A stretch of DNA of 64,000 nt from Methanosarcina acetivorans C2A (GTDB lineage Archaea > Halobacteriota > Methanosarcinia > Methanosarcinales > Methanosarcinaceae): NCBI RefSeq assembly GCF_000007345.1, contig NC_003552.1:2232001-2296000 (forward strand), in the 5' to 3' direction. Below, one piece after another: positions 10,194-35,143 of this stretch. The translations under genes and the position numbers were made by a program. The notes below the pieces were generated by a model. That model saw only the letters and a program-made list of their open reading frames with translations. It ran no database searches and was not told the DNA's origin. Positions within the stretch are counted from its first letter, which is position 1. The number at the start of each line of letters is the position of its first letter.

Positions 10194-11000
10194 ATGAGAA
10201 TCCTTGTACTTTATACGGGTGAACTCGGAAAAAAAGTTATCCAGAATTTGATAAATCCGTCAACTTTCTGCGTGTCATGCGGTGAGCTCTGCAACCACTG
10301 CCGTCAGGTAAGGAAATCTTATGCAAACCTGCTTGTTGGAATCCACGAGTTCCCGGAAGACCTGCCTCCGTTTATCGAAGAGCCTGCCCAGTTCATGCCT
10401 CCGAAACTTCCGGAATGTGACCTGATCCTTGCCATAGGAATCCATCCCGACCTCCTCATAGCCCTTCCCGAAGTCGTAGAGAAAACGGGTGCAAAAGCCG
10501 TAATTGCCCCCGCTGAAGATTCAAAGAAGACTCCTGCCGGGGTCCTTGAGCAGCTCAGAAAAGAACTTGAAGCCATGGGTGTCGAATTCGAGGCTCCAAA
10601 ACCCTTCTGTGCCCTGGAAAAGACCGGAAAGCCAGTTATAGATGCTTTCGTGGACCTTGGCTTCGGAAAGCCGATGCTCAGGATCGAAATGAGCCCTGAC
10701 GGAAAGATGTTCATAGGCGCAGGCGTCCTCAGGGATGCCCCCTGTGGCTCAACATGGTTTGTTGCAAAAAAGCTCGGCTGGACCGATGCTTCAGGATATA
10801 AAGAAACAATTTCAGGCGCCCACCACTCTTACCCCTGTACCGGAAGCATGGACAAAGATCCTCAGATAGGAGATACGATCCTGCACAAAGCCGGATACAT
10901 CATAAGGGAAGCTGTGGAAGAAGGAATGGAGTGCGAGAAAAAGGAAAAAGCCAGAATTTCGGCAAGCTGCGTTGATGAAGCTCAAGCTACTGGCTCCTGA
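10194..11000 (+). CDS. DUF166 family protein
   Basis: A 268-residue DUF166 protein, sometimes misnamed thymidylate synthase in older archaeal annotation. Its N-terminus has a dense Cys cluster, CVSCGELCNHC, near residues 24-34, and more Cys occur in DAPCGSTWF and SYPCTG, which suggests metal or redox chemistry. In some methanogens a relative is a selenoprotein; here all these positions are ordinary Cys codons. The function is unknown. It is preceded by a structured leader candidate and followed, 1 bp after its stop, by a long 15-bp repeat array. It is probably cytoplasmic, with no signal peptide or membrane helix. Confidence 0.82.
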   Translation: MRILVLYTGELGKKVIQNLINPSTFCVSCGELCNHCRQVRKSYANLLVGIHEFPEDLPPFIEEPAQFMPPKLPECDLILAIGIHPDLLIALPEVVEKTGAKAVIAPAEDSKKTPAGVLEQLRKELEAMGVEFEAPKPFCALEKTGKPVIDAFVDLGFGKPMLRIEMSPDGKMFIGAGVLRDAPCGSTWFVAKKLGWTDASGYKETISGAHHSYPCTGSMDKDPQIGDTILHKAGYIIREAVEEGMECEKKEKARISASCVDEAQATGS

Positions 11001-13928: not shown

Positions 13929-15095
13929 ATGACAGAAAATATACCGTGGTTGGATAAAATAAGCATAGATAAAGATGAATCTATGGAGAACTATGTATCT
14001 ATTAAGAGATATCTTAGAAAAATAAAAAATGAAACGACTTCTGAAGCAACCTTACGTAATCAGTGTGTTGCGCTCAATATCTTTGCAAAATGGTGCGATA
14101 AAGATTTTTCAGAACTAGATGAAGACGACATTTATGATTACTTTGATTACTTAGAATCATACACCTATGAAAGGAACGGGAAAATAAAACACTATTCTGA
14201 AACCAGTATTTACCTTTATAAGATGGCTTTAAAGAAATTCTTGCGGATAATTGAAAAAGAAGGTTTGTCAAAATTGATTAAATGTAAAAACCCCGCAACA
14301 AAGAAACTTCCAGAAGACATTCTGAGTAAAGAAGATATTGAGAAATTATTAAGTGCCGCACGAAATCCTAGAGATAAAGCACTCATAGCTACTTTGTATG
14401 AATCAGGAGCAAGAAAAGGCGAACTTTTTTCGGTTAGATTGAAGCATATAGTTTTTGATGAAAACGGATGCATTGTAACTCTGCCGGAAGGAAAAACAGG
14501 TGCAAGAAGGGTTAGACTTGTTTTTGCAGCTTCTTATTTAAGGCAGTGGATTGAATGTCATCCCACTAAAGATAATAGAGATTCATATCTTTTTGTATCT
14601 TCAAGAGATGACCATCCTTTAATATCTACTACTGCACTTAAGGAAGGTCTAGATAGAATTTCAAAGAGGGCAGGAGTTAAAAAACGAGTCAATCCTCACG
14701 CATTTAGACATGCGAGAGCAACACACCTTGCAGGGCATTTGACTGAACAGCAAATGAAAATATATCTAGGGTGGACTGAAAACTCAAGCATGGCTTCTGT
14801 TTATGTTCATTTGAGTGGTAAGGATATCGATGATGCAATATTGAAGATGAATGGAATAATAATGGATGAGACTCATGCAGACGGTTTGAGGGTCGGTAGA
14901 TGCTCCAGATGTAAAGAACTTAATTCAGAATCAGCCATGTACTGCTGGAAATGTGGTCAACCATTGAGAGAGGGAGCTGAAAAGAGTGTTACAACTGTTA
15001 ACAAAGAAATGGAAGATATGCTTTTAAAAGTCTTGACTGAAAATTCTGCATTAAAAGAAGAACTTATGAGGGAGTTCACGAAGCTCAAGGGGTAA
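13929..15095 (+). CDS. tyrosine recombinase with C-terminal zinc ribbon
   Basis: A 388-residue site-specific recombinase. Residues about 20-115 form the SAM-like DNA-binding domain and residues about 125-310 the catalytic domain. Catalytic residues appear as Arg in GARKGELFSV, HAFRHARATH (His-x-x-Arg), GWTENSS, and the nucleophile Tyr in SVYVHLSG. A zinc ribbon follows (CSRCKE near residue 322, CWKCGQ near 340), then a coiled-coil-like tail. This arrangement is typical of archaeal XerA/integrase-like proteins from mobile elements. No phage or plasmid genes and no tRNA target are adjacent, so it is either the remnant of an integrated element or a stand-alone recombinase. Confidence 0.88.
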   Translation: MTENIPWLDKISIDKDESMENYVSIKRYLRKIKNETTSEATLRNQCVALNIFAKWCDKDFSELDEDDIYDYFDYLESYTYERNGKIKHYSETSIYLYKMALKKFLRIIEKEGLSKLIKCKNPATKKLPEDILSKEDIEKLLSAARNPRDKALIATLYESGARKGELFSVRLKHIVFDENGCIVTLPEGKTGARRVRLVFAASYLRQWIECHPTKDNRDSYLFVSSRDDHPLISTTALKEGLDRISKRAGVKKRVNPHAFRHARATHLAGHLTEQQMKIYLGWTENSSMASVYVHLSGKDIDDAILKMNGIIMDETHADGLRVGRCSRCKELNSESAMYCWKCGQPLREGAEKSVTTVNKEMEDMLLKVLTENSALKEELMREFTKLKG

Positions 15096-15855
15096 AGGCT
15101 TAAGAGAAGCAATCTACCGAATTGCAGAAGTAAAGAATTTTTGAAATTTATATTACGGGTTGATAATCCGCAATTTTTCTCTTTTTCAGGCTAATGTTAT
15201 TCGCTTGCACATTGTTTATTTTTTTTAATAAAATTTCCCCTAATTATCTTATAATCTCTGGAATTGACTCTACTCCGGAAGTCGGGGTCACGGCAATAAA
15301 GAGCAGTCAACAAACAGTCATAATAATTTTATATCAGGTTGTGTATTCCCATATTTATCATAAGTCTTCAGAGGATTTTGATAGAGGGAGCTGCAATTCA
15401 CTACATTTGAAAATAAATTTTGGATTTTTTTGGCACAATTCATAACTTTTTTGGTTTCTAGATCCTGTCAGTATTTTCCACATCAGTGCCCATCTTAGTA
15501 CAATTTTATTTGAAGTAGTACATGAGAGTGTGGAAATTTGGTACCTATGACCTCATATGCTCAAAAATAATTGAAAAGTTGGCATCTAAATTATTGACGA
15601 AATTTGTATTGCAAATATCTGTAGAAAATATTTTACCAAAATATTCACATTAAATCGCTGCTTAGGGTAGACTTTTTTGCTTCCTCAATGGCCGATATAC
15701 TTATATATTGAAGGATGAGATGATAATTTGTTCACCAATCATGTAATAAAAAAATCATATGACTCAAGTAAAAGGAGGATTTAAGTTTGAAAAGAAAATG
15801 TGGTGAATTAAAATAAGTTTATTACTATGAGTACTGGGAAATGTATTAAAATTAA
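15096..15855. other. gene-free AT-rich region
   Basis: No gene with supporting motifs is visible between the recombinase and the second IS copy; one short frame at 15194-15445 lacks domain features. The region is AT-rich and probably includes the recombinase terminator. I see no clear attachment repeats. Confidence 0.4.
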
Positions 15856-25687: not shown

Positions 25688-25841
25688 TAGAAAACCGATG
25701 AAGTAATAAATCCGCATTAGCTTGAACTGAACCTTATGATCTGTATTTTCCATAGTTAGTTTCAGTCCCTTAATGCTGATTTATATAGGTTTTTTACAGA
25801 GCCGTATTTTGATCTTTTTACTTTGAAATTCGTTTGACTAA

Positions 25842-26145
25842 GAGCCTATCCGAAAAATATATGAATTCCGATTCAGGGTAATGTTTTGCAGTGATAAAAC
25901 GAAAAACGGGACGCGACTACGAGATATCTGATGAATTCTGGAATAAAATAAACCCTTTACTGCCATTGCTCAAACCTAAAAAGAAACCTGGAAGACCTAG
26001 AGAAAATGATCGGAAAATAATGAACGGCATTTTCTACATCCTTCGCACTGGCATTATACGAGGTATTATAAGAGGCATTACTCGGGGTATTATGGGGGTA
26101 TTATGCGAAGCATTGTGTGATCAAACATTTTCGCAAGTTTTTTAA
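25842..26145 (+). pseudogene. IS5-type transposase remnant
   Basis: The terminal repeat gagcctatccgaaaa starts at 25842 and a GTG-started frame at 25891 gives the IS5-family N-terminus YEISDEFWNKINPLLPLL then KKKPGRPRENDRKIMNG. After FYILRTG the normal sequence is lost and replaced by short in-frame direct repeats (RGIIRGITRGIMG), and the frame ends at 26145. The DDE core is missing, so the element is dead, but its end matches the MITE at 9463-9598. Confidence 0.8.
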
Positions 26146-26163: not shown

Positions 26164-27006
26164 ATGCGCATGCCCGTGCTAAATCCATACTTTTTCGCCT
26201 TCGAGATTCTGGTTTTAGTGCTCTTTCTGGTCTGTCTGCAAAATGCGTGGCAGCGAGGCTCCTATGTAGTCTGGCAACTTCTTGCCGTGGTGCTCTTCGG
26301 CTTGCTGCTGGAATGGGCTACAATCCAACAGCTCGACGCCTACGAGTACGGACGCTTTCTGGTAATGCTTGGGCCTGTCCCTGTGGTCGTTGGGGTGGCC
26401 TGGGGGACTATCATCTATAGCGTTCGCTCCTTTTCCGATAAAACCAACCTTCCGGAATGGGCACGCCCGGTGCTCGACGGCCTGATGGCCCTGAGCATCG
26501 ACCTTTCCATGGACGCGATAGCCATCCGCCTGGGCATGTGGGATTGGGGAAAAGGTCTTGAACATCAGTACTTCGGTGTCCCTTACAACAACTTCTGGGC
26601 ATGGTTCTGGGTTGTGTTCTCATTTTCAGCAAGCCTTCGATTGCTATCAAAGCTCCCTGGATTCTGGGGACGCTGGCTCTCCCCTGCAGGAGCTATAATC
26701 TGCGGCACTGCGGGCGTGCTTATTACCAACGAGCTCATTACCAACATTCCCAATGACCTGATACATTACGCTACTATCGCTGTAGTCTTAGGAGGTGCTC
26801 TGCTATTGATTTTGGCATTACTCCCGGAAGTCTCGGTACAGTCTCAGGCTGCATTTGTCTTTCTTGTGCCTCTTGGATTTCATGCCTATTTCCTGATAGC
26901 AGGATTAGTTTCAGGTGCCATCCTGAACCCACCCTTTTTGCTGGTGGTAAGTATATTTATGAGCATAGGAGCAATTTGGCTTCACCGAGATGCTCTAAAT
27001 TACTAG
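26164..27006 (+). CDS. carotenoid biosynthesis family membrane protein (CruF-like)
   Basis: A 280-residue integral membrane protein with about seven or eight hydrophobic helices. The motif DLSMDAIAIRLGMWDWG followed by YFGVPYNNFWAWFWVV is the signature of the DUF422/CruF carotenoid hydratase family, which adds water to a terminal isoprene unit. Whether methanosarcinas make a carotenoid-like lipid with it is unknown. It starts only 18 bp after the IS5 remnant stop. Its last 90 bp and the following 90 bp occur again at 30487-30677. Confidence 0.75.
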   Translation: MRMPVLNPYFFAFEILVLVLFLVCLQNAWQRGSYVVWQLLAVVLFGLLLEWATIQQLDAYEYGRFLVMLGPVPVVVGVAWGTIIYSVRSFSDKTNLPEWARPVLDGLMALSIDLSMDAIAIRLGMWDWGKGLEHQYFGVPYNNFWAWFWVVFSFSASLRLLSKLPGFWGRWLSPAGAIICGTAGVLITNELITNIPNDLIHYATIAVVLGGALLLILALLPEVSVQSQAAFVFLVPLGFHAYFLIAGLVSGAILNPPFLLVVSIFMSIGAIWLHRDALNY

Positions 27007-27099
27007 TATCGGTCTAATAAAGAAAGCAAAACAGAGAAAGCAAGTAATTAGACCACCGGCTAACATCATCTTACAAGCCTTTTACGCCCGTCTTTCAAG
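26917..27099. repeat. roughly 183-bp direct repeat, copy 1
   Basis: This segment spans the 3' end of the CruF-like gene and its downstream DNA (gccatcctgaacccaccctt through ttttacgcccgtctttcaag). It recurs in the same orientation at 30487-30677 with scattered mismatches. The two copies bracket the surface-protein gene. Confidence 0.88.
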
Positions 27100-27321
27100 A
27101 CCTCTCCAGAAGGGAGTCGAGACCAGAGAAGATCTTCCTTTAAGCTGTTCAGCAATGGTTGTGGTCTTGCCAAAGGTTTTCTTTGCATCAAAACTCACAT
27201 ACACAACACAGGTTGCATTTTTGTGAAATCAAACTTTACAGGCTTTCCGTTTGTAATAAAAGCTTGTGAAAAGTTCCTTTACCTGGACATTTTTTGCAGG
27301 TTCAGGAGAAATGTCTGCGCC
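27100..27321 (-). pseudogene. decayed PGF-pre-PGF domain of the adjacent surface protein
   Basis: Minus-strand translation past the surface-protein stop gives SPEPAKNVQVKELF, then in another frame FITNGKPVKFDFT, then after a lost A, ATCVVYVSFDAKKTFGKTTT and EQLKG. These are the hallmarks of the PGF-pre-PGF domain found at the C-terminus of Methanosarcina surface proteins. One stop and two frameshifts break it, and homology ends where the direct repeat begins near 27100. The sorting motif itself is gone. Confidence 0.8.
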
Positions 27322-30081
27322 TCAACCACCACTGGAACTACTATGGCTACTTACACCACTTGAACTGCTAGGTGTAAGTACATTTATTGCAGCAGTTTTT
27401 GAGTCAGTTCCATTTTTGTTGCTTACAGTTAGGTTGACAGTATAGGTTCCAGGATTTGCATATATATAAACCGGATTTATATTACTGGAATCGAGCTGTC
27501 CGTCGCCATTGAAGTCCCAGATCCTTGAAGTTGCTTTCTGGGACATGTCATTAAACTTTACTGTTAGGGGAGCATAACCCTCGGTAACGTTGCTACTGAA
27601 GTTTGCAACAGGGAATATTGGTTGTGCTTGGAGAGAACCTATAAACTGCCCGAAGGAATTAGGATTACGTCCTACATTCATAGTTGCTGTAACCTTGTTT
27701 GTTGATGTGTCAATTACAGAAACAGTATCTCTGAGCTGATTAGCCACATATACCTTTGATCCATCCGGTGTGACTGCAACTCCAAAAGGACTATTTCCTA
27801 CAGGAATTGTGGCTGTAACCTTGTTGGTAGCCGTGTCAATTACAGAGACAAAACCATCGACTGTGCCAGCCGCATATGCTTTCTTTGTTCCTGCAACATA
27901 TACCTTTGTTCCTGTCGGATTGACTACAATTCCATAAGGAGAGTTTTCTAGATCCACCGTAGCTGTAACAGTATTTGTAGCTGTATCAATTATAGAGACA
28001 GTACTGTCACCGCGGTTCCCCACATATACTTTTTTCCCATCCGGACTTATTGCAACTCCACAAGGATCGTCTCCTACAGGAATTGTGGCTATAACAGTGT
28101 TTGTTGCCGTGTCAATTACAGAGACAGTTTTGTCACGGAGATTAGTCACATACACCTTTTTCCCATCCAGTGTAACAGCAACTCCAAAAGGAACTTCGCC
28201 TACAAGTACTGTGGCTTCAACCTCGTTGGTATCTGTGTCTATAATGAGGGTAGTGTTGTTGCTGGGATTTCCCACCTCATGATGTGGCACATATACCCTT
28301 TTCCCATCAGGGGAAACTGCAACTCCACGAGGAGAGTTTCCTAGAGGAATTGTGGCTGTAACTTTGTTTTTTGTTGCATCAATTACAGATATAGTACGGC
28401 CAAAAAAGTTAGTCACATATACCTTTTTTCCATCCAGTGTAACAGCAACTCCCATAGGATAGTTTCCTACAGGAATCATGGCTGTAACCTTGTTAGTAGT
28501 CGTGTCAATTACTGAGACATTGTTGTCGCCGGAGTTCGTAATATATGCATATGGACCTACACCGACTAGCTGCATTACTGTTATTGTAGTTAACTTTGAA
28601 TCTGTACCATTTTCATTGATTGCTGTCAGATTAACTGAATAGATTCCTGAATCTGCATATTCATGAACTGGACTTCTTTGTGTAGAATTACTTCCATCCC
28701 CAAAATCCCAGTTCCATCCAGTTGCATTTTGTGAAAGGTCAGTAAATTGAATTGAGAGAGGAGGATAACCATGGGTAACATTGCTACTGAAGTTTGCAAC
28801 TGGAAATGGATTAGTAACGACTATGTAATTTGGCTTCATTACTTTATTATTACCTGCGTCATTTCCCGCAGTCAGACTGATTGTATAGTTTCCTGGCTTA
28901 GTAAATGTGTGCGTTGCATTCATGACATGTTTTGAGTCAATCCCGTGCCCAAAATCCCAAATCCAGGAAGTAGGTACTCCGCCAGTGCTGGCATCGGTGA
29001 ATAACACAACTAGAGGTGCAGCTCCATAAGTTGTGTTTGCAGTAAATTCAGCTACAGGTGGCAAGGTGTTTGTGACAGAAAGATCACAGATATAGATGCC
29101 AGTATCATTAACCCCACCATAACTACTGTCTATTCCCCATACAATAGTATCATTGTAGATATCAGGTGTTGTGTGAGTTCCCCTTGGATAAATATAGACT
29201 GGAGTGCTTTTTGCTGAAGGAATATCATAAACGTATACACCGGCATAACCAAACTGGTCATCGCCAGATTTTGAATATACGATTTCATCCCCGCTTATGT
29301 CAATATGAGTGCCCGTGTCATCTCCAGCATCAATAGTATCAGATCCATATAAAGTATTACCTGTATTATCACTGGTAACATCTATAGCCTTTTTAGCGAC
29401 AAGGTCATACATTTGTATAAATCCAGATCTTGTATAGAAGTTTGACCATATCACTTTATTACCATACATATGCGGATTAAATACCTGACTGGAATGATGT
29501 ACGTTTATGGTCTCCTTAGTATTAACATCATAAACAGCAATGTTTCGCCCGTCATCATCGTCGTAACCATATGTTATCTTGGTCTCGTATATTTCTGGAT
29601 TCTCTCCTTGAGCTATCCAGACTTGTGTTGAGGTAGATATATCACGCATATATACGTTGTAACTATAACTTGACCTATTGTAATTTGCACTCCACACAAT
29701 TCTATTGCCGTAAATAGCGGGAAAACTGTAGTTTCCTACATCCTGTGTGATATACGAACGAGCACCCGAAGGTATGTCATAAACTGTAAGTCTTGGCACT
29801 CCACTGCTTTTATCATGCCACACTAATTTGTTGCCGTAGATAGCCGGATGAGATGCTGCAGAAGAGCTAACTGTAGTGCCTGTTTTCGAGGTTAAATCAT
29901 AGAGATGAATAACACCCCCACTTGTCCATACTATCTTGTTACCATAAATAGCAGGATCAGATCCACTACCAATTCTCGTCACCTGTGCCGCTGAAGCCAC
30001 GGATGAAATTAAAATAGAAAACACAAAAAATAAGACAGTTAAAACCAAAGCTATCGAGTATAATTCTTTGTTAATTTTCAC
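27322..30081 (-). CDS. secreted surface protein: beta-propellers and PKD domains, C-terminally truncated
   Basis: A 919-residue exported protein. A signal peptide occupies residues about 1-32. Residues about 33-340 form a TolB-like propeller with repeated AIYGNKIVW motifs. PKD domains follow at about 345-425 and 428-505 (WIWDFGHG, WNWDFGDGS). YVTN/NCVNC-type propeller blades occupy about 512-815 (VYVTNLRDKTVSVIDTATN repeated), then a third PKD and a Ser/Gly tail. Such proteins coat the Methanosarcina cell and mediate adhesion. The frame ends GG-stop, and the DNA beyond encodes a decayed anchor domain, so the product is probably secreted without anchoring. Confidence 0.88.
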   Translation of the reverse strand: MKINKELYSIALVLTVLFFVFSILISSVASAAQVTRIGSGSDPAIYGNKIVWTSGGVIHLYDLTSKTGTTVSSSAASHPAIYGNKLVWHDKSSGVPRLTVYDIPSGARSYITQDVGNYSFPAIYGNRIVWSANYNRSSYSYNVYMRDISTSTQVWIAQGENPEIYETKITYGYDDDDGRNIAVYDVNTKETINVHHSSQVFNPHMYGNKVIWSNFYTRSGFIQMYDLVAKKAIDVTSDNTGNTLYGSDTIDAGDDTGTHIDISGDEIVYSKSGDDQFGYAGVYVYDIPSAKSTPVYIYPRGTHTTPDIYNDTIVWGIDSSYGGVNDTGIYICDLSVTNTLPPVAEFTANTTYGAAPLVVLFTDASTGGVPTSWIWDFGHGIDSKHVMNATHTFTKPGNYTISLTAGNDAGNNKVMKPNYIVVTNPFPVANFSSNVTHGYPPLSIQFTDLSQNATGWNWDFGDGSNSTQRSPVHEYADSGIYSVNLTAINENGTDSKLTTITVMQLVGVGPYAYITNSGDNNVSVIDTTTNKVTAMIPVGNYPMGVAVTLDGKKVYVTNFFGRTISVIDATKNKVTATIPLGNSPRGVAVSPDGKRVYVPHHEVGNPSNNTTLIIDTDTNEVEATVLVGEVPFGVAVTLDGKKVYVTNLRDKTVSVIDTATNTVIATIPVGDDPCGVAISPDGKKVYVGNRGDSTVSIIDTATNTVTATVDLENSPYGIVVNPTGTKVYVAGTKKAYAAGTVDGFVSVIDTATNKVTATIPVGNSPFGVAVTPDGSKVYVANQLRDTVSVIDTSTNKVTATMNVGRNPNSFGQFIGSLQAQPIFPVANFSSNVTEGYAPLTVKFNDMSQKATSRIWDFNGDGQLDSSNINPVYIYANPGTYTVNLTVSNKNGTDSKTAAINVLTPSSSSGVSSHSSSSGG

Positions 30082-30464
30082 CAGCTTCTTCCCCTTATAT
30101 TCATCTAAAAAACGTTAATTCCCAGGTCATAAATTGAATGTTTAATTATTTAATTTTAAATTCCAAATATATAAAAATAAAAGAAATTAAGATCGTGTAT
30201 AAAAAAGCGATATTCTGGTAAATCAAGGCTGAATTAAAACATCAAAATGCTCAGGCATAAAAACTTACAAGATGTCTTAAGAATTCATACTGCCATGGAA
30301 CTACCATGTAGAAAGTTCCGAAAACGCTGAAACTCCCTTCTGCGTGAAAGAGTAAAGATTACAAGGCTATAAAGAAAAAACTCGAGAAAAGTCAGCTTAG
30401 ATGAGGAGAATTCAGAGTTCTATATAGGGGAGTATATTTTATTAAGAAGTAAGCAAGCCAGCAT
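30082..30464. other. intergenic region upstream of surface-protein gene
   Basis: No gene is seen. AT-rich DNA near 30120-30180 probably holds the surface-protein promoter on the minus strand. A TATA-like box (gtatatttta, about 30432-30441) lies some 25-33 bp before the tRNA-Leu fragment, the right distance for a tRNA promoter. Confidence 0.45.
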
Positions 30465-30494
30465 GCGAGAGTTGCCGAGCCTGGTTAAAGGCGC
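30465..30494 (+). pseudogene. tRNA-Leu 5' half (truncated)
   Basis: GCGAGAGTTGCCGAGCCTGG followed by TTAAAGGCGC is a near-perfect acceptor-5' strand, U8 region and D-arm of an archaeal tRNA-Leu. The anticodon arm, variable arm and acceptor-3' strand are absent: at ggcgcc the sequence passes into the duplicated CruF gene end. A TATA-like box lies upstream at a proper distance, so this is a real tRNA gene that was cut, not chance similarity. Confidence 0.7.
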
Positions 30495-30677
30495 CATCCT
30501 GAACCCACCCTTTTTGCTGGTGGTAAGCATAGTTATGAGCATAACAGCACTTGGGCTTCATCGAGATGCTCTAAATTACTGGTATCGGTCTAATAGAGAA
30601 AGCAAAACAGAGAAAGCAAGTAATTAGACCACTGACTAACCCCTATCTTCAATCCGTTTACGCCCGTCTTTTAAGGG
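30487..30677. repeat. roughly 183-bp direct repeat, copy 2
   Basis: This second copy of 26917-27099 starts inside the tRNA-Leu fragment at ggcgccatcctg and ends at cgcccgtcttttaag. The CruF reading frame here is only a 3' scrap. Confidence 0.88.
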
Positions 30678-30681
30678 CCGA

Positions 30682-30915
30682 CCCAACGATGGAGCATTAC
30701 AAACGAATATATCTAATTTGGGGGGTGAAAATAATGTCCAGATTTTCATTCTCGATTGGGATGGAAAACTCTTGACAACAATGCTTCCTCCTGAAAGTAC
30801 CAACGTAAAAACAAAGTTTGCTCAGTATCATGTTTTTGAGGATAAAGAGGCAAGGCTTGAGATAGCAAAGAAATTATTTCGGATTAGAAGAAAAGGAAGT
30901 AAAAGAAATATTTAA
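30682..30915 (+). pseudogene. cas1 remnant
   Basis: The frame reads ENNVQIFILDWDGKLL, then KFAQYHVFEDKEARLEIAKK, which matches the junction of the N-terminal beta domain and the start of the catalytic domain in Cas1 integrases. Only about 75 codons remain, the Cas1 active-site Glu/His/Asp region is missing, and the end (FRIRRKGSKRNI) is unrelated. No CRISPR array, cas2 or other cas gene is in the window. A casposon Cas1 is possible instead. Confidence 0.6.
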
Positions 30916-31099: not shown

Positions 31100-34000
31100 T
31101 CATCCTTGTTCATTAATATCCAAGCCACTCTCGAATAAAATGGTCTTTGACTCTTCCTCTTTTTCAATTTTTTCGAGGATCTCAAATGCTGTATTGACTG
31201 AAAATTCGTGTTCCGATTTCAACAATTCTTCCAACTGCTTTTTGTTCTTTACAGTACAGATCTCTTTGAGAATAGCTGCAGTTTTCCTTTGCACATCTCC
31301 AGCTTCATCTTTCAGTGAATTGATTAGTAGTTGCATTGCGGTTTCAGATTCAATATTACCAAGCACTTCTACCACACTCAGCCGCACATGCTTATCTTTA
31401 TCTGTCATTACATTGCCTAGTAGTTTCACTATAATTTCAGACCCAACACCTTCATTTTCGTTTTCCATTACATTTGTGAATAGCTGTACCATCGTTTCAG
31501 ACTGACCTACTCTGGATTGAGGATAAGAACTTAACAACATAAACGTCTTTAATAGACTTTCTCTCATAGATTCCGGTTCGTTCTCGTCTATCATTACATT
31601 AATTAGCAGCTGCATAGCATGTTTAGATTCGAAGTTGCAAAGTGAATATGCAGCACTCAACCGTACATCTTCATTTTCATCTTTAAGCAAATTGATTAAA
31701 GGAGTGATCGAGAGTTCCGACTCAATAACTCCAAGTACCGCTGCAGTACCTTTTCGAACATTTTTGCTCTCATTATTAAGCGCATTGATTAGCTGTCGCA
31801 CGGCAGTTTCAGATTTAAAACTCTCAAGTGCTCTTATTGCTTCACTTCTCACATGTTCATCTTCATCATTTAATTTATCAATTAACGGTTGCACTGCGGT
31901 TTCAGACTTAATATCCCCAAGTGCAACGACAGCACTCCACCGCACATTTTCGTTTTCGTCTTTAAGCAAATCGATTAGGGGCTGCACAGCAGCTTCAGAC
32001 TTTATTTTTCCAAGTGCAATTGCAGCACTCACTCGTATATCTCCATCTATATCTTCATCTATATACTCCTCTTCATCTGCATATTCATCTTCATTTACAT
32101 CTTCGTCTTTTAGTAAATCGATTAGAGGCTGCACAGCAGCTTCAGACTTTATTTCCCCAAGTGCCCCCACTACATCACTTCTCACAAATTCACTTTTATC
32201 GTTTAATGCATCGATTAACGGCTTAACTGCAGTTTTAGACTTTATTTCCCCAAGCGCATGTGCAGCTACACCTCTGACAGATTCTGATTTATCTTTTAAT
32301 GCACCGATTAGAGATTGAACTGCGGCTTCAGATTTTGTATGACTTAGTGCAAGGGCAGCATTCATTCTTACCTCTTCGTCTTGATCTTTAAGTGCATTAA
32401 TTAACGGTTGTACTGCTATTGCTATTTCATATTGAATTTGTAAAAATACTCCTGTTACACCTCTTCGTACGTTTATATCTTCATTTTTAAGTGCATTGAC
32501 TAGCAATTGCACTACAGTATCATACTCATTTCTAAACTCTGCAGAATAAGGAAAGGAATCCCTGCTTTTAATTATAGAAGAGCATATACTTCCAAGTGCT
32601 TGTCTAGCATTATGTTGTAAATCTAAATCTTCATCTTTCAACGCTTCAATCAATAACATAACTGCGGTTTCAGATTCTAAATAACCTAACATAAGTGAAG
32701 AAATATTCCGTAATTCTTTGTCTTTGAGTGCATTAACCAATGCCTTCACTGCTTTCTCCGATTCAATATCTTTGAGTGCTTTTACTGCATCCCATCTGAC
32801 AGACAGATCTTCGTTTTCATTATTCAATATATCAATTAGTGATTTCTCTGCTATTTCATCGTTGATTACTATAAGTGAATGCGCAGCTGCTGACCGCACA
32901 TGTTCATTTTCATCTCTCAATGCGTCGATTAATGATTGCACCGCTCCTTCCGATTCAATATAGCCAAGTGCTTCCGCTGCTTCCTTTCGCACATCTTCAT
33001 TTTCATCTTCTAATGCATCAATTAGCGGCTTCACTGCTTTTTTCGATCCGGTACTTCCGAGTGCGTTTGCTGCATTCGACCTCACATCTTCATTTTCATC
33101 TTTCAATGCATCGAGGAGTAACTGAACTGCTGCCTCCGACCTAATGTTTCCAAGTGCTTCTGCTGCGTTCCACCTGATGTCTTTGTCTTCATCTCTAAGA
33201 GCTTTGGCAATTGTACCAATTCCGATGATTCCAATCCTTTCCAAGCTCTCAATCACGTTTATTTTTTCCAGTTTATACTTCGAATCCATTTTATCGGCAA
33301 GTAAAGAGCAGATCTTCTCTTTTATTTCATCACTTGCTTTATTTGAACACTTTGAAGCCAAGAACAGATTGCCTTTTAAAATAATTGAATCGATGAATTT
33401 GTCAGCCGAATCCAACATTTCAGAGGTAAATATCACGACTTCTTCCCATTTCGGCTGACTGAAAGCTTCTGAAATATCAAATCCATTCTCAAAATATTCT
33501 TTTAATTTTATGGCTGCAAAATATTCCTGAAAAGACTGATGGAATCCATATTCTACTTCGGTGTCTTTTCTATTTAAAAGCCCGAGTTTGAAGCAATCTT
33601 CTAGAATATGCTGAGAGGTTGTTTCTTTAAATCTGGGATCGTTAGCATTCTTTGCGACAAAATTCAACGCTTCATCGTACTCACATGAAACCTTATTCCA
33701 GCACTGAAGCCTAAAATACAAATCCGTGAGAGCATTTCTTATCTGTATCTGGTCGGAACAAAGGCTTTTTCCTTTTGTTTTTACATGAGCAAAAAGACCA
33801 GATATAAAGGCTTTATACATTTCAGGACGGCTTGAAGGGAGCAAATCTTCAGTATTGCTCTTTCTTTCCATTGCAACTCTGATTGCAAGAGAGAGTAGCA
33901 TTGGATTTGTGAATAGAGATTTTAATTGCTTATCACCTAGGATTTTATCATTTAGAATGCCCCTAGTTTCCATATCTGGAACGCATTTATAAATGAATGT

Positions 34001-35143
34001 CAGGATTTTTCCGTATGTGAGTTTCTCCAGTTCCGAAACTTTGAAATCACTTCTAATACTCTCAAAAAAGTCAGGTCTCGATGAAATGATGAATTTGCAG
34101 TTGCTGTATTCGGATACAAAATTGGAAATCTCTTCATAAGGAAAGAACCCATCAGTAGGCGAGAGTAGGTCAAAGCCATCAATGAACAGTATGGTTTCTC
34201 CTTTCAACAGTATTTCTAAAATGTCTTTTGAAATTCCTCTTCCCTGCGCTTTTATCCTCACATAATCGTAAAAAGAGCCTTTGATGTACGAGTTTAATTC
34301 CACGTAAAGAGGAATGCTTTCGTTTTTTCCCTCAAGGTAATTTGTTGCATAGATGAAATTCAACCATTTGAGGGTGGTTGTTTTACCAGCACCTGATTCC
34401 CCCGAGATAATGAGCCTTTCTTCTTTCTTGACAAGTTCGAGTACCTCATAATCTCGGGTTCTGTCGCTTTTTTCATCGTGAAACTTGAGGCTTATCGGCA
34501 AAATTTCTTTGGCTGAAAGCTCTGTATATACTTCACTAATCCCGAATTCACTGTCTTCAGCTATTATCTTATAGATGTATTTTGTTATTGATTCTTGGAA
34601 ATCTGTACCTAATTCCTTTCCAAAGTTTTGATCCATCTTATTGCCATTAATTACTTTGTCGTGTATTTCCACAACTCTTTGAGACATTTCTTGGAATCCT
34701 TGAGATAGATTATGGACTCCTTGATTTGTTTCACGAGATATTTGATAAGTCTGTTTCGCTAAATGAGTTTTAAGATTCTCCCTGAGTTCAGAGTCTTTTT
34801 CAATCTCATGATCTAAAATTTCGAAAAAAGTATTTAATATTGACTTTGCATATTCTCTGGAGAAATTCTCTTCACTAAACGATGCAAGAAAATCGTCATT
34901 TAAGCTCTTTAGTAAGTCACTACTGTTTGGATTTTCAAGGTATTCTTTGATTGCCGTTTTTACGTTTTTCTGACGCAGAAAGATATCAATTTGCGTTCCA
35001 CTTTGTCTATATTTCTTATTTAATTCTTTAATTGCATTTTTATATGCTTTCGAAGAATGATCAAAAAGTCTGCCTGGGATTTTCTTGGCTGAGTCATATA
35101 GTAGGTTAGTAAGAAGACCTAAAGCTAATTCTGAAATTACCAT
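31100..35143 (-). CDS. NACHT-NTPase with long HEAT-repeat array (candidate NLR-like defence protein)
   Basis: A 1347-residue STAND ATPase. Residues about 1-200 are helical with no recognised effector. A NACHT domain follows: Walker A GESGAGKT at 248-255, Walker B ILFIDGFD at 318-325, then SSRPDFF (sensor-like) and a helical lid to about 630. From about 640 to 1300 there are about 20 HEAT/PBS-lyase-like repeats of 31 residues (AVQPLIDALKDENEDVR pattern), with one acidic insertion (residues about 1005-1020). In bacteria, NACHT proteins with repeat sensors protect against phage; this organisation fits, but no phage test is implied for this family member. It has no operon partner. Its promoter carries several ACATG inverted repeats. 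Confidence 0.88.
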   Translation of the reverse strand: MVISELALGLLTNLLYDSAKKIPGRLFDHSSKAYKNAIKELNKKYRQSGTQIDIFLRQKNVKTAIKEYLENPNSSDLLKSLNDDFLASFSEENFSREYAKSILNTFFEILDHEIEKDSELRENLKTHLAKQTYQISRETNQGVHNLSQGFQEMSQRVVEIHDKVINGNKMDQNFGKELGTDFQESITKYIYKIIAEDSEFGISEVYTELSAKEILPISLKFHDEKSDRTRDYEVLELVKKEERLIISGESGAGKTTTLKWLNFIYATNYLEGKNESIPLYVELNSYIKGSFYDYVRIKAQGRGISKDILEILLKGETILFIDGFDLLSPTDGFFPYEEISNFVSEYSNCKFIISSRPDFFESIRSDFKVSELEKLTYGKILTFIYKCVPDMETRGILNDKILGDKQLKSLFTNPMLLSLAIRVAMERKSNTEDLLPSSRPEMYKAFISGLFAHVKTKGKSLCSDQIQIRNALTDLYFRLQCWNKVSCEYDEALNFVAKNANDPRFKETTSQHILEDCFKLGLLNRKDTEVEYGFHQSFQEYFAAIKLKEYFENGFDISEAFSQPKWEEVVIFTSEMLDSADKFIDSIILKGNLFLASKCSNKASDEIKEKICSLLADKMDSKYKLEKINVIESLERIGIIGIGTIAKALRDEDKDIRWNAAEALGNIRSEAAVQLLLDALKDENEDVRSNAANALGSTGSKKAVKPLIDALEDENEDVRKEAAEALGYIESEGAVQSLIDALRDENEHVRSAAAHSLIVINDEIAEKSLIDILNNENEDLSVRWDAVKALKDIESEKAVKALVNALKDKELRNISSLMLGYLESETAVMLLIEALKDEDLDLQHNARQALGSICSSIIKSRDSFPYSAEFRNEYDTVVQLLVNALKNEDINVRRGVTGVFLQIQYEIAIAVQPLINALKDQDEEVRMNAALALSHTKSEAAVQSLIGALKDKSESVRGVAAHALGEIKSKTAVKPLIDALNDKSEFVRSDVVGALGEIKSEAAVQPLIDLLKDEDVNEDEYADEEEYIDEDIDGDIRVSAAIALGKIKSEAAVQPLIDLLKDENENVRWSAVVALGDIKSETAVQPLIDKLNDEDEHVRSEAIRALESFKSETAVRQLINALNNESKNVRKGTAAVLGVIESELSITPLINLLKDENEDVRLSAAYSLCNFESKHAMQLLINVMIDENEPESMRESLLKTFMLLSSYPQSRVGQSETMVQLFTNVMENENEGVGSEIIVKLLGNVMTDKDKHVRLSVVEVLGNIESETAMQLLINSLKDEAGDVQRKTAAILKEICTVKNKKQLEELLKSEHEFSVNTAFEILEKIEKEEESKTILFESGLDINEQG

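Follow-up and report, generated by a model that had tools for sequence, protein, structure and literature searches.

In the chromosome of Methanosarcina acetivorans C2A, the 5' half of a tRNA-Leu gene is fused, with no gap between them, to the 3' end of a cruF-like gene. Which event broke the tRNA gene at this place, and was a mobile element involved? An earlier note on this DNA had suggested that an element or a recombination event used the tRNA and left the tRNA/cruF joint as its breakpoint. Here, the window is the whole stretch of 64,000 nucleotides that was analyzed, i.e., positions 2,232,001 to 2,296,000 of the 5,751,492-base chromosome. It was compared with the genus Methanosarcina at one genome per species (31 species), with M. 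acetivorans represented by a single strain. We favor, at a probability of roughly 0.75, the reading that the locus is the relic of a twice-broken tRNA-Leu(CAG) integration array, in which recombination at a core sequence was followed by a separate breakage and fusion to the cruF end.

The half tRNA belongs to an 87-bp module

A gene of the tRNA-Leu(CAG) type is represented at 30465 to 30496 (+) of the window by its 5' half, from tRNA position 1 to approximately position 31, and the letters at 30460 to 30499 read agcatGCGAGAGTTGCCGAGCCTGGTTAAAGGCGCCATCC. The intact tRNA-Leu with a near-identical 5' half, for which a search had been proposed, was found at 4,085,009 to 4,085,093 of the same genome (G000:C1), and the half tRNA matches this tRNA-Leu(CAG) over 33 bp at 91% identity (genome-wide E = 1e-5). 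A covariance score no better than random had been named as grounds for rejecting the tRNA. With a tRNA-Leu covariance model, positions 30465 to 30518 gave the best match of the whole 64 kb, but a weak one (15.9 bits, E 0.12), because half of the base pairs are missing. Neither ARAGORN nor Rfam called a tRNA at the site, and with the 3' half absent there is no complete, foldable tRNA at 30465. As the homology is strong and the structure score weak, the case for a real half tRNA comes from sequence homology and not from its tRNA-structure score. Its D-loop carries three substitutions. Across 11 tRNA-Leu genes of the genus, two of the affected positions are invariant and the other is nearly so. 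This exact D-loop variant was absent from every other genome of the genus searched.

Homology to other Methanosarcina genomes begins 55 bp ahead of the tRNA, at ATTCAGAG (30410), and spans both the promoter and the half tRNA. The half tRNA is part of an 87-bp module (30410 to 30496) composed of the att core TTCAGAG, a promoter, and the tRNA 5' half, and this module matches another Methanosarcina genome (G003) at 84% identity (E 1.3e-20). Together with the match to the native gene, this bears out the original identification of a tRNA-Leu 5' half. When the G003 module was laid ungapped over the window, 73 of 87 positions agreed at 30410 and 42 of 87 at the second-best place (mean 22, SD 4); this distance and the E value rule out a chance resemblance. 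The TATA box that had been reported is TATATTTTATT, at 30433 to 30443 (+). It is well placed, with its center at -27 relative to the half tRNA, but it is not the promoter of the native tRNA-Leu loci, which carry other upstream sequence; it belongs to the dispersed module.

Further copies of the module occur in Methanosarcina, in tRNA-Leu integration arrays or close to them. Approximately 20 copies were compared side by side, most of which continue into a tRNA-Leu 3' half, and ARAGORN called tRNA-Leu(CAG) at the module loci L060, L074, and L075. In G003, G008, G020, G023, G007, and G001, a second tRNA-Leu 5' half, intact or worn, lies immediately upstream of the module core, and other copies have unrelated DNA in front. 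In several genomes, for example this one (G000) and G009, the module is far from the native tRNA-Leu. A search of phages and plasmids with the module gave single tRNA-Leu matches only, none of which covered the promoter, and the promoter pattern had no exact match in IMG/VR. The module may travel at the left end of an element, or it may be what elements leave behind when they restore the 5' half. One element always carrying the whole module at its left end and, for G003, a two-step history may fit the copies equally well; the letters of the anticodon stem do not decide between them, because the displaced 3' half is the same in G006, where it follows a native 5' half.

A probable att joint lies to the left of the module

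Positions 29982 to 30420 are 84% identical to positions 174160 to 174596 of G003, with 88% identity over the last 160 bp. The G003 counterpart ends at the same ATTCAGAG and is followed there by a tRNA-Leu 3' half instead of the module. Two further end families behave likewise, with a 3' half at the core in one genome and the module in another. Because the cassette end in G003 is joined at TTCAGAG to a 3' half, the att junction of the window is placed on the left, at 30411 to 30417. From the alternate partners, these positions are best read as a site-specific recombination joint.

The cargo on the left is a surface-protein gene (Table 1), relatives of which lie just downstream of tRNA-Leu in G013 C7 and G012 C21 and inside the G003 array. 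Near 27098, an edge set by eye, the chunk cuts this gene inside its C-terminal region. In this genome, purD-argF is followed directly by the intact tRNA-Leu(CAG), and the order purD-argF-tRNA-Leu is conserved in G003, G006, and G013; the genes of the conserved G003 segment are those that we take, from their translations, to be purD-like and argF-like. At the purD-argF locus of G013, the native tRNA-Leu is followed by the window's cassette type and then by the module. A chunk of that arrangement lies approximately 1.8 Mb from the native tRNA-Leu in M. acetivorans.

Table 1. Features of the relic and its surroundings (window positions)
Feature	Position	Strand	Basis
cruF-like gene, copy A, 280 aa, carotenoid biosynthesis protein	26164..27006	+	Pfam PF04240, E 3.8e-8
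cruF copy A, 3' end with flank (upstream copy of the duplication)	26914..27099	+	BLAST within the window
Remnant, C-terminal part of a surface-protein gene; left edge of the chunk near 27098	27100..27321	-	27119-27309 82% identical to G014 C82 7013-7203; edge by eye
Cargo gene, PKD/beta-propeller surface protein, 919 aa	27322..30081	-	Pfam matches to PKD and to a YNCE-like beta-propeller
Cargo cassette, right end, as far as the att core	29982..30410	+	84% identity to G003 174160-174596
Putative att core TTCAGAG (anticodon loop of tRNA-Leu(CAG)), joint of cassette end and module	30411..30417	+	Three end families with alternate partners
TATA box of the module	30433..30443	+	Center at -27; conserved among module copies
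tRNA-Leu 5' half	30465..30496	+	91% identity to native tRNA-Leu(CAG); best covariance match of the window, weak
AGGCGCCA, joining word of tRNA and cruF copy B	30489..30496	+	8-bp word common to both genes
cruF copy B, truncated 3' end	30489..30675	+	BLAST and comparison with relatives
Old downstream flank of cruF, continuous with copy B	30676..30875	+	30489-30875 88% identical to continuous cruF plus flank of G020; similar in G023 and G010

A different kind of break at the tRNA/cruF joint

The gene end fused to the tRNA had been described as a copy of the 3' end of the upstream cruF-like gene, and this was confirmed: by BLAST, positions 26913 to 27099 and 30489 to 30675 are 90% identical over 188 columns, at an offset of 3576 bp (3.58 kb). 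Downstream, copy B passes into the sequence found behind cruF in G023, G020, and G010 and is therefore the old locus. The body of copy A is approximately 94% identical to the single-copy cruF of relatives.

The part of the earlier note that took the tRNA/cruF breakpoint for the element junction was not supported, since the att joint is on the other side and the tRNA and cruF meet on the shared word AGGCGCCA. This is the only 8-bp word, and the longest exact one, common to a tRNA-Leu gene and the cruF of G009. With that cruF as a stand-in for the lost copy, the frequency of random tRNA/cruF joints sharing at least 8 bp is 8.5e-5. A joint on the only shared 8-bp word is as expected of a short-homology rearrangement, and to judge from this word, the tRNA/cruF joint looks like a secondary rearrangement, not an att site. 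The fusion was found in 1 of the 31 Methanosarcina species, and its D-loop variant is unique within the genus to this genome, which rules out an ancient fusion fixed in all relatives.

In other species, tRNA-Leu pseudogenes lie beside cruF on the same strand, namely in G003 (41 bits), G028 (31 bits), G006 (47 bits, downstream), and, weakly, G018 (18.5 bits). These four are the top matches in 195 kb of cruF loci plus the window, and G014 has a short tRNA-Leu 5' piece at cruF. Because such pseudogenes adjoin cruF in relatives, a deletion of approximately 1 kb between a tRNA-Leu and a neighboring cruF would be the simplest last step, and tRNA and cruF would formerly have been adjacent here as well.

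The cruF duplication is not explained by the deletion alone and needs a second, earlier event. A recent duplication is unlikely, since the two copies differ at 22 of 186 positions and are not sisters, copy B being nearer to G023 than to copy A. An alternative that would account for these relations, and for the duplicated 186 bp on both flanks of the chunk, is an insertion into cruF, in which circular DNA with a foreign 186-bp cruF 3' end beside the module integrated into the native cruF. The end of copy A would then be the incoming one and copy B the displaced native end. Consistent with this, the last 93 coding bases of copy A differ from G023 at 9 of 93 positions, against 45 of 796 in the body of copy A and 5 of 93 in copy B. 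However, this excess divergence is slight, the circle would already have needed both odd joints (tRNA/cruF and cruF/surface gene), and the tRNA/cruF joint is not at TTCAGAG. We consider such an insertion unlikely and retain the doubly broken relic as the preferred reading.

Several further observations concern the surroundings of the two copies. In G010 (L136, ~9298), cruF has independently lost its 5' part at nearly the same base, where it is now joined to a transporter-like gene, so breakage has occurred here repeatedly. The break spot at 26926 to 26945 of the window contains a small inverted repeat, CCACC-CTTTTTGCT-GGTGG. Copy A stops 15 codons early, with TAG at 27004 to 27006 in place of the TGG of relatives and copy B (280 versus 295 aa). 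Just before copy A, at 25837 to 26048, there is a transposase remnant with 87% identity to G000 1967656 to 1967865, within a tRNA-Leu 3'-half array. Adjoining the relic at 31100 to 35143 (-), a possible defense gene encodes a 1347-aa protein with a NACHT domain, many HEAT repeats, and PADLOC HEAT-ARM matches.

Arrays of tRNA 3' halves and a candidate integrase

The proposal that mobile elements used tRNA-Leu was supported by TTCAGAG arrays, displaced 3' halves, and an integrase beside the core in relatives. The tRNA-Leu 3' halves are arranged in tandem and start on the anticodon-loop core TTCAGAG or a few bases away at most; there are five in 9 kb in G003 and four, followed by the module, in G006. 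The genome of M. acetivorans has six tandem 3' halves, four full and two partial, at G000:C1:1938201-1972541. No tRNA-Leu 5' half was found near this array (1.938 to 1.973 Mb) within the 80 kb read. With 2.1 Mb between it and the native tRNA-Leu, this array appears to have been relocated.

In the arrays of G003, G006, and G012, a gene for a 371-aa tyrosine integrase (PF00589; mutual identity 77 to 91%) starts 64 to 66 bp from the core, which in G012 reads CTTAAGA, a tRNA-Leu(UAA)-like variant. From the position of the gene beside the core, we infer that this integrase recombines at TTCAGAG cores, and it would also have acted at 30411 to 30417 of the window. The common core within the tRNA gene is present at the array joints of the relatives and at the left joint in the window; the right joint of the window chunk is not a core. 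The chunk in the window contains no integrase; thus, it is a relic and not a whole element. Elsewhere in the window (13929 to 15092, +) there is a second, different tyrosine integrase of 388 aa (PF00589), with approximately 33% identity to the tRNA-Leu integrases. Its target could be a tRNA gene that lies 4 kb ahead of the window (G000 2228030 to 2228103).

The G003 unit between tRNA-Leu and the integrase measures approximately 17 kb and includes a D5_N/DUF5906 replication-type protein; the same unit probably holds an Hma-type defense cluster. HmaB-like and HmaC-like defense genes and a NOV_C protein were noted in the integrase-bearing tRNA-Leu unit at G003 L122 8481 to 15791. Small segments of the arrays look like cassettes, judging by their recurring ends: in the G003 array L165, a small cassette with a 106-aa ORF (no Pfam match) occurs twice, at 10497 to 10817 and 14934 to 15254, with a PAS/histidine kinase cassette in between, and the same end sequence is also present in G026 and G001. 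A tentative and rather doubtful extension is that the tRNA-Leu(CAG) of Methanosarcina serves as a cassette platform. Integrase-less cargo units (surface proteins, sensor kinases), each bounded by TTCAGAG and a tRNA 3' half, would be added in tandem by the resident 371-aa integrase, and the spare promoter-plus-tRNA module beside the core would keep the tRNA working whatever is inserted, in a manner resembling integrons that collect cassettes.

Function of the half tRNA and proposed history

A functional split tRNA, in which the module promoter would drive the half and its product would be joined in trans to a distant 3' half, could draw on the intact look of the promoter and on the separate 3' halves at 1.94 to 1.97 Mb. 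It is nevertheless very improbable, given the substitutions at invariant and nearly invariant D-loop positions, a form unique to this genome within the genus, and the presence of an intact tRNA-Leu(CAG). The half tRNA is unable to make a tRNA, which the native gene at 4.085 Mb does, and it is probably not functional as a tRNA. A hybrid tRNA-half/cruF transcript is conceivable from the promoter sequence.

At the level of sequence comparison, the recurrence of the module, the common core, the integrase beside the core, the cassette homology, and the microhomology are established, and the following history is proposed for the relic. Integrative elements would recombine at the anticodon-loop core TTCAGAG of tRNA-Leu(CAG), leaving behind tRNA 3' halves and modules of TTCAGAG, promoter, and tRNA 5' half; intact modules would continue as a complete replacement tRNA-Leu. 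One chunk of an array of this kind (surface-protein cassette, TTCAGAG, and module) would then have ended up 1.8 Mb from the native tRNA-Leu. Finally, the module would have been cut between the D arm and the anticodon stem and joined via AGGCGCCA to a cruF 3' end, most simply by deletion between a tRNA-Leu copy and a neighboring cruF. That a Methanosarcina casposon using tRNA-Leu made the breakpoint is scarcely credible: M. mazei casposons do insert at tRNA-Leu genes (PMC6977970, PMC10359463), but a casposon scar needs the tRNA 3' end (CGCA), a 14-bp target duplication, and terminal inverted repeats, and is contradicted here by an absent 3' end and by joints in the anticodon loop and in AGGCGCCA.

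Comparison with known systems

It is standard for att sites to lie in anticodon loops, for fragments to be displaced, and for islands to occur in tandem (PMC8371274, PMC4383910), and 159 of 3919 islands in Islander have a 5' fragment (PMC4383910). Like the classical tyrosine-integrase elements at anticodon loops (Islander attachment subsite A, PMC4383910; PMC8371274), the Methanosarcina arrays have an integrase beside the core, a core in the anticodon loop, displaced 3' fragments, and tandem accretion. They differ in the modules with their own promoter and 5' half beside the core, in the many array segments without an integrase, and in the scattering of pieces in this genome.

The pTN3-like elements of Thermococcales (PMC5495485, PMC8371274) likewise target tRNA-Leu, carry the tRNA 5' part on the element, and rebuild the tRNA off its original promoter. 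In Methanosarcina, too, the putative module promoter precedes a complete tRNA-Leu in relatives. However, the att site of pTN3-like elements lies inside the integrase gene, which is split on integration so that the tRNA is expressed from the integrase promoter, whereas in the integrated Methanosarcina arrays the 371-aa integrase ORFs are whole and begin 64 to 66 bp from the core, and the promoter of the tRNA sits in a short module of its own. The M. mazei casposons (PMC6977970, PMC10359463) share the genus and the tRNA-Leu targets but differ in their Cas1 casposase and in inserting at the tRNA 3' end with a target duplication and inverted repeats, features that this locus lacks.

A literature search, with subscription papers mostly outside its coverage, found no paper on the promoter-plus-5'-half module or the array. 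Elements targeting tRNA genes are known; the promoter-plus-5'-half module and the dispersed arrays are a new form of these. The half tRNA marks a genus-wide integration hotspot in a model methanogen, for which a candidate integrase and core site can now be named. The scattered tRNA-Thr fragment of Caldiarchaeum (PMC3293823) is similar in that a tRNA 5' fragment is parted from its gene beside a recombinase-bearing element, but it is a single locus in one population, whereas the Methanosarcina module recurs across the genus. The relic is a concrete case of mobile DNA breaking and scattering tRNA genes, a route that has been proposed for disrupted tRNA genes (PMC3293823).
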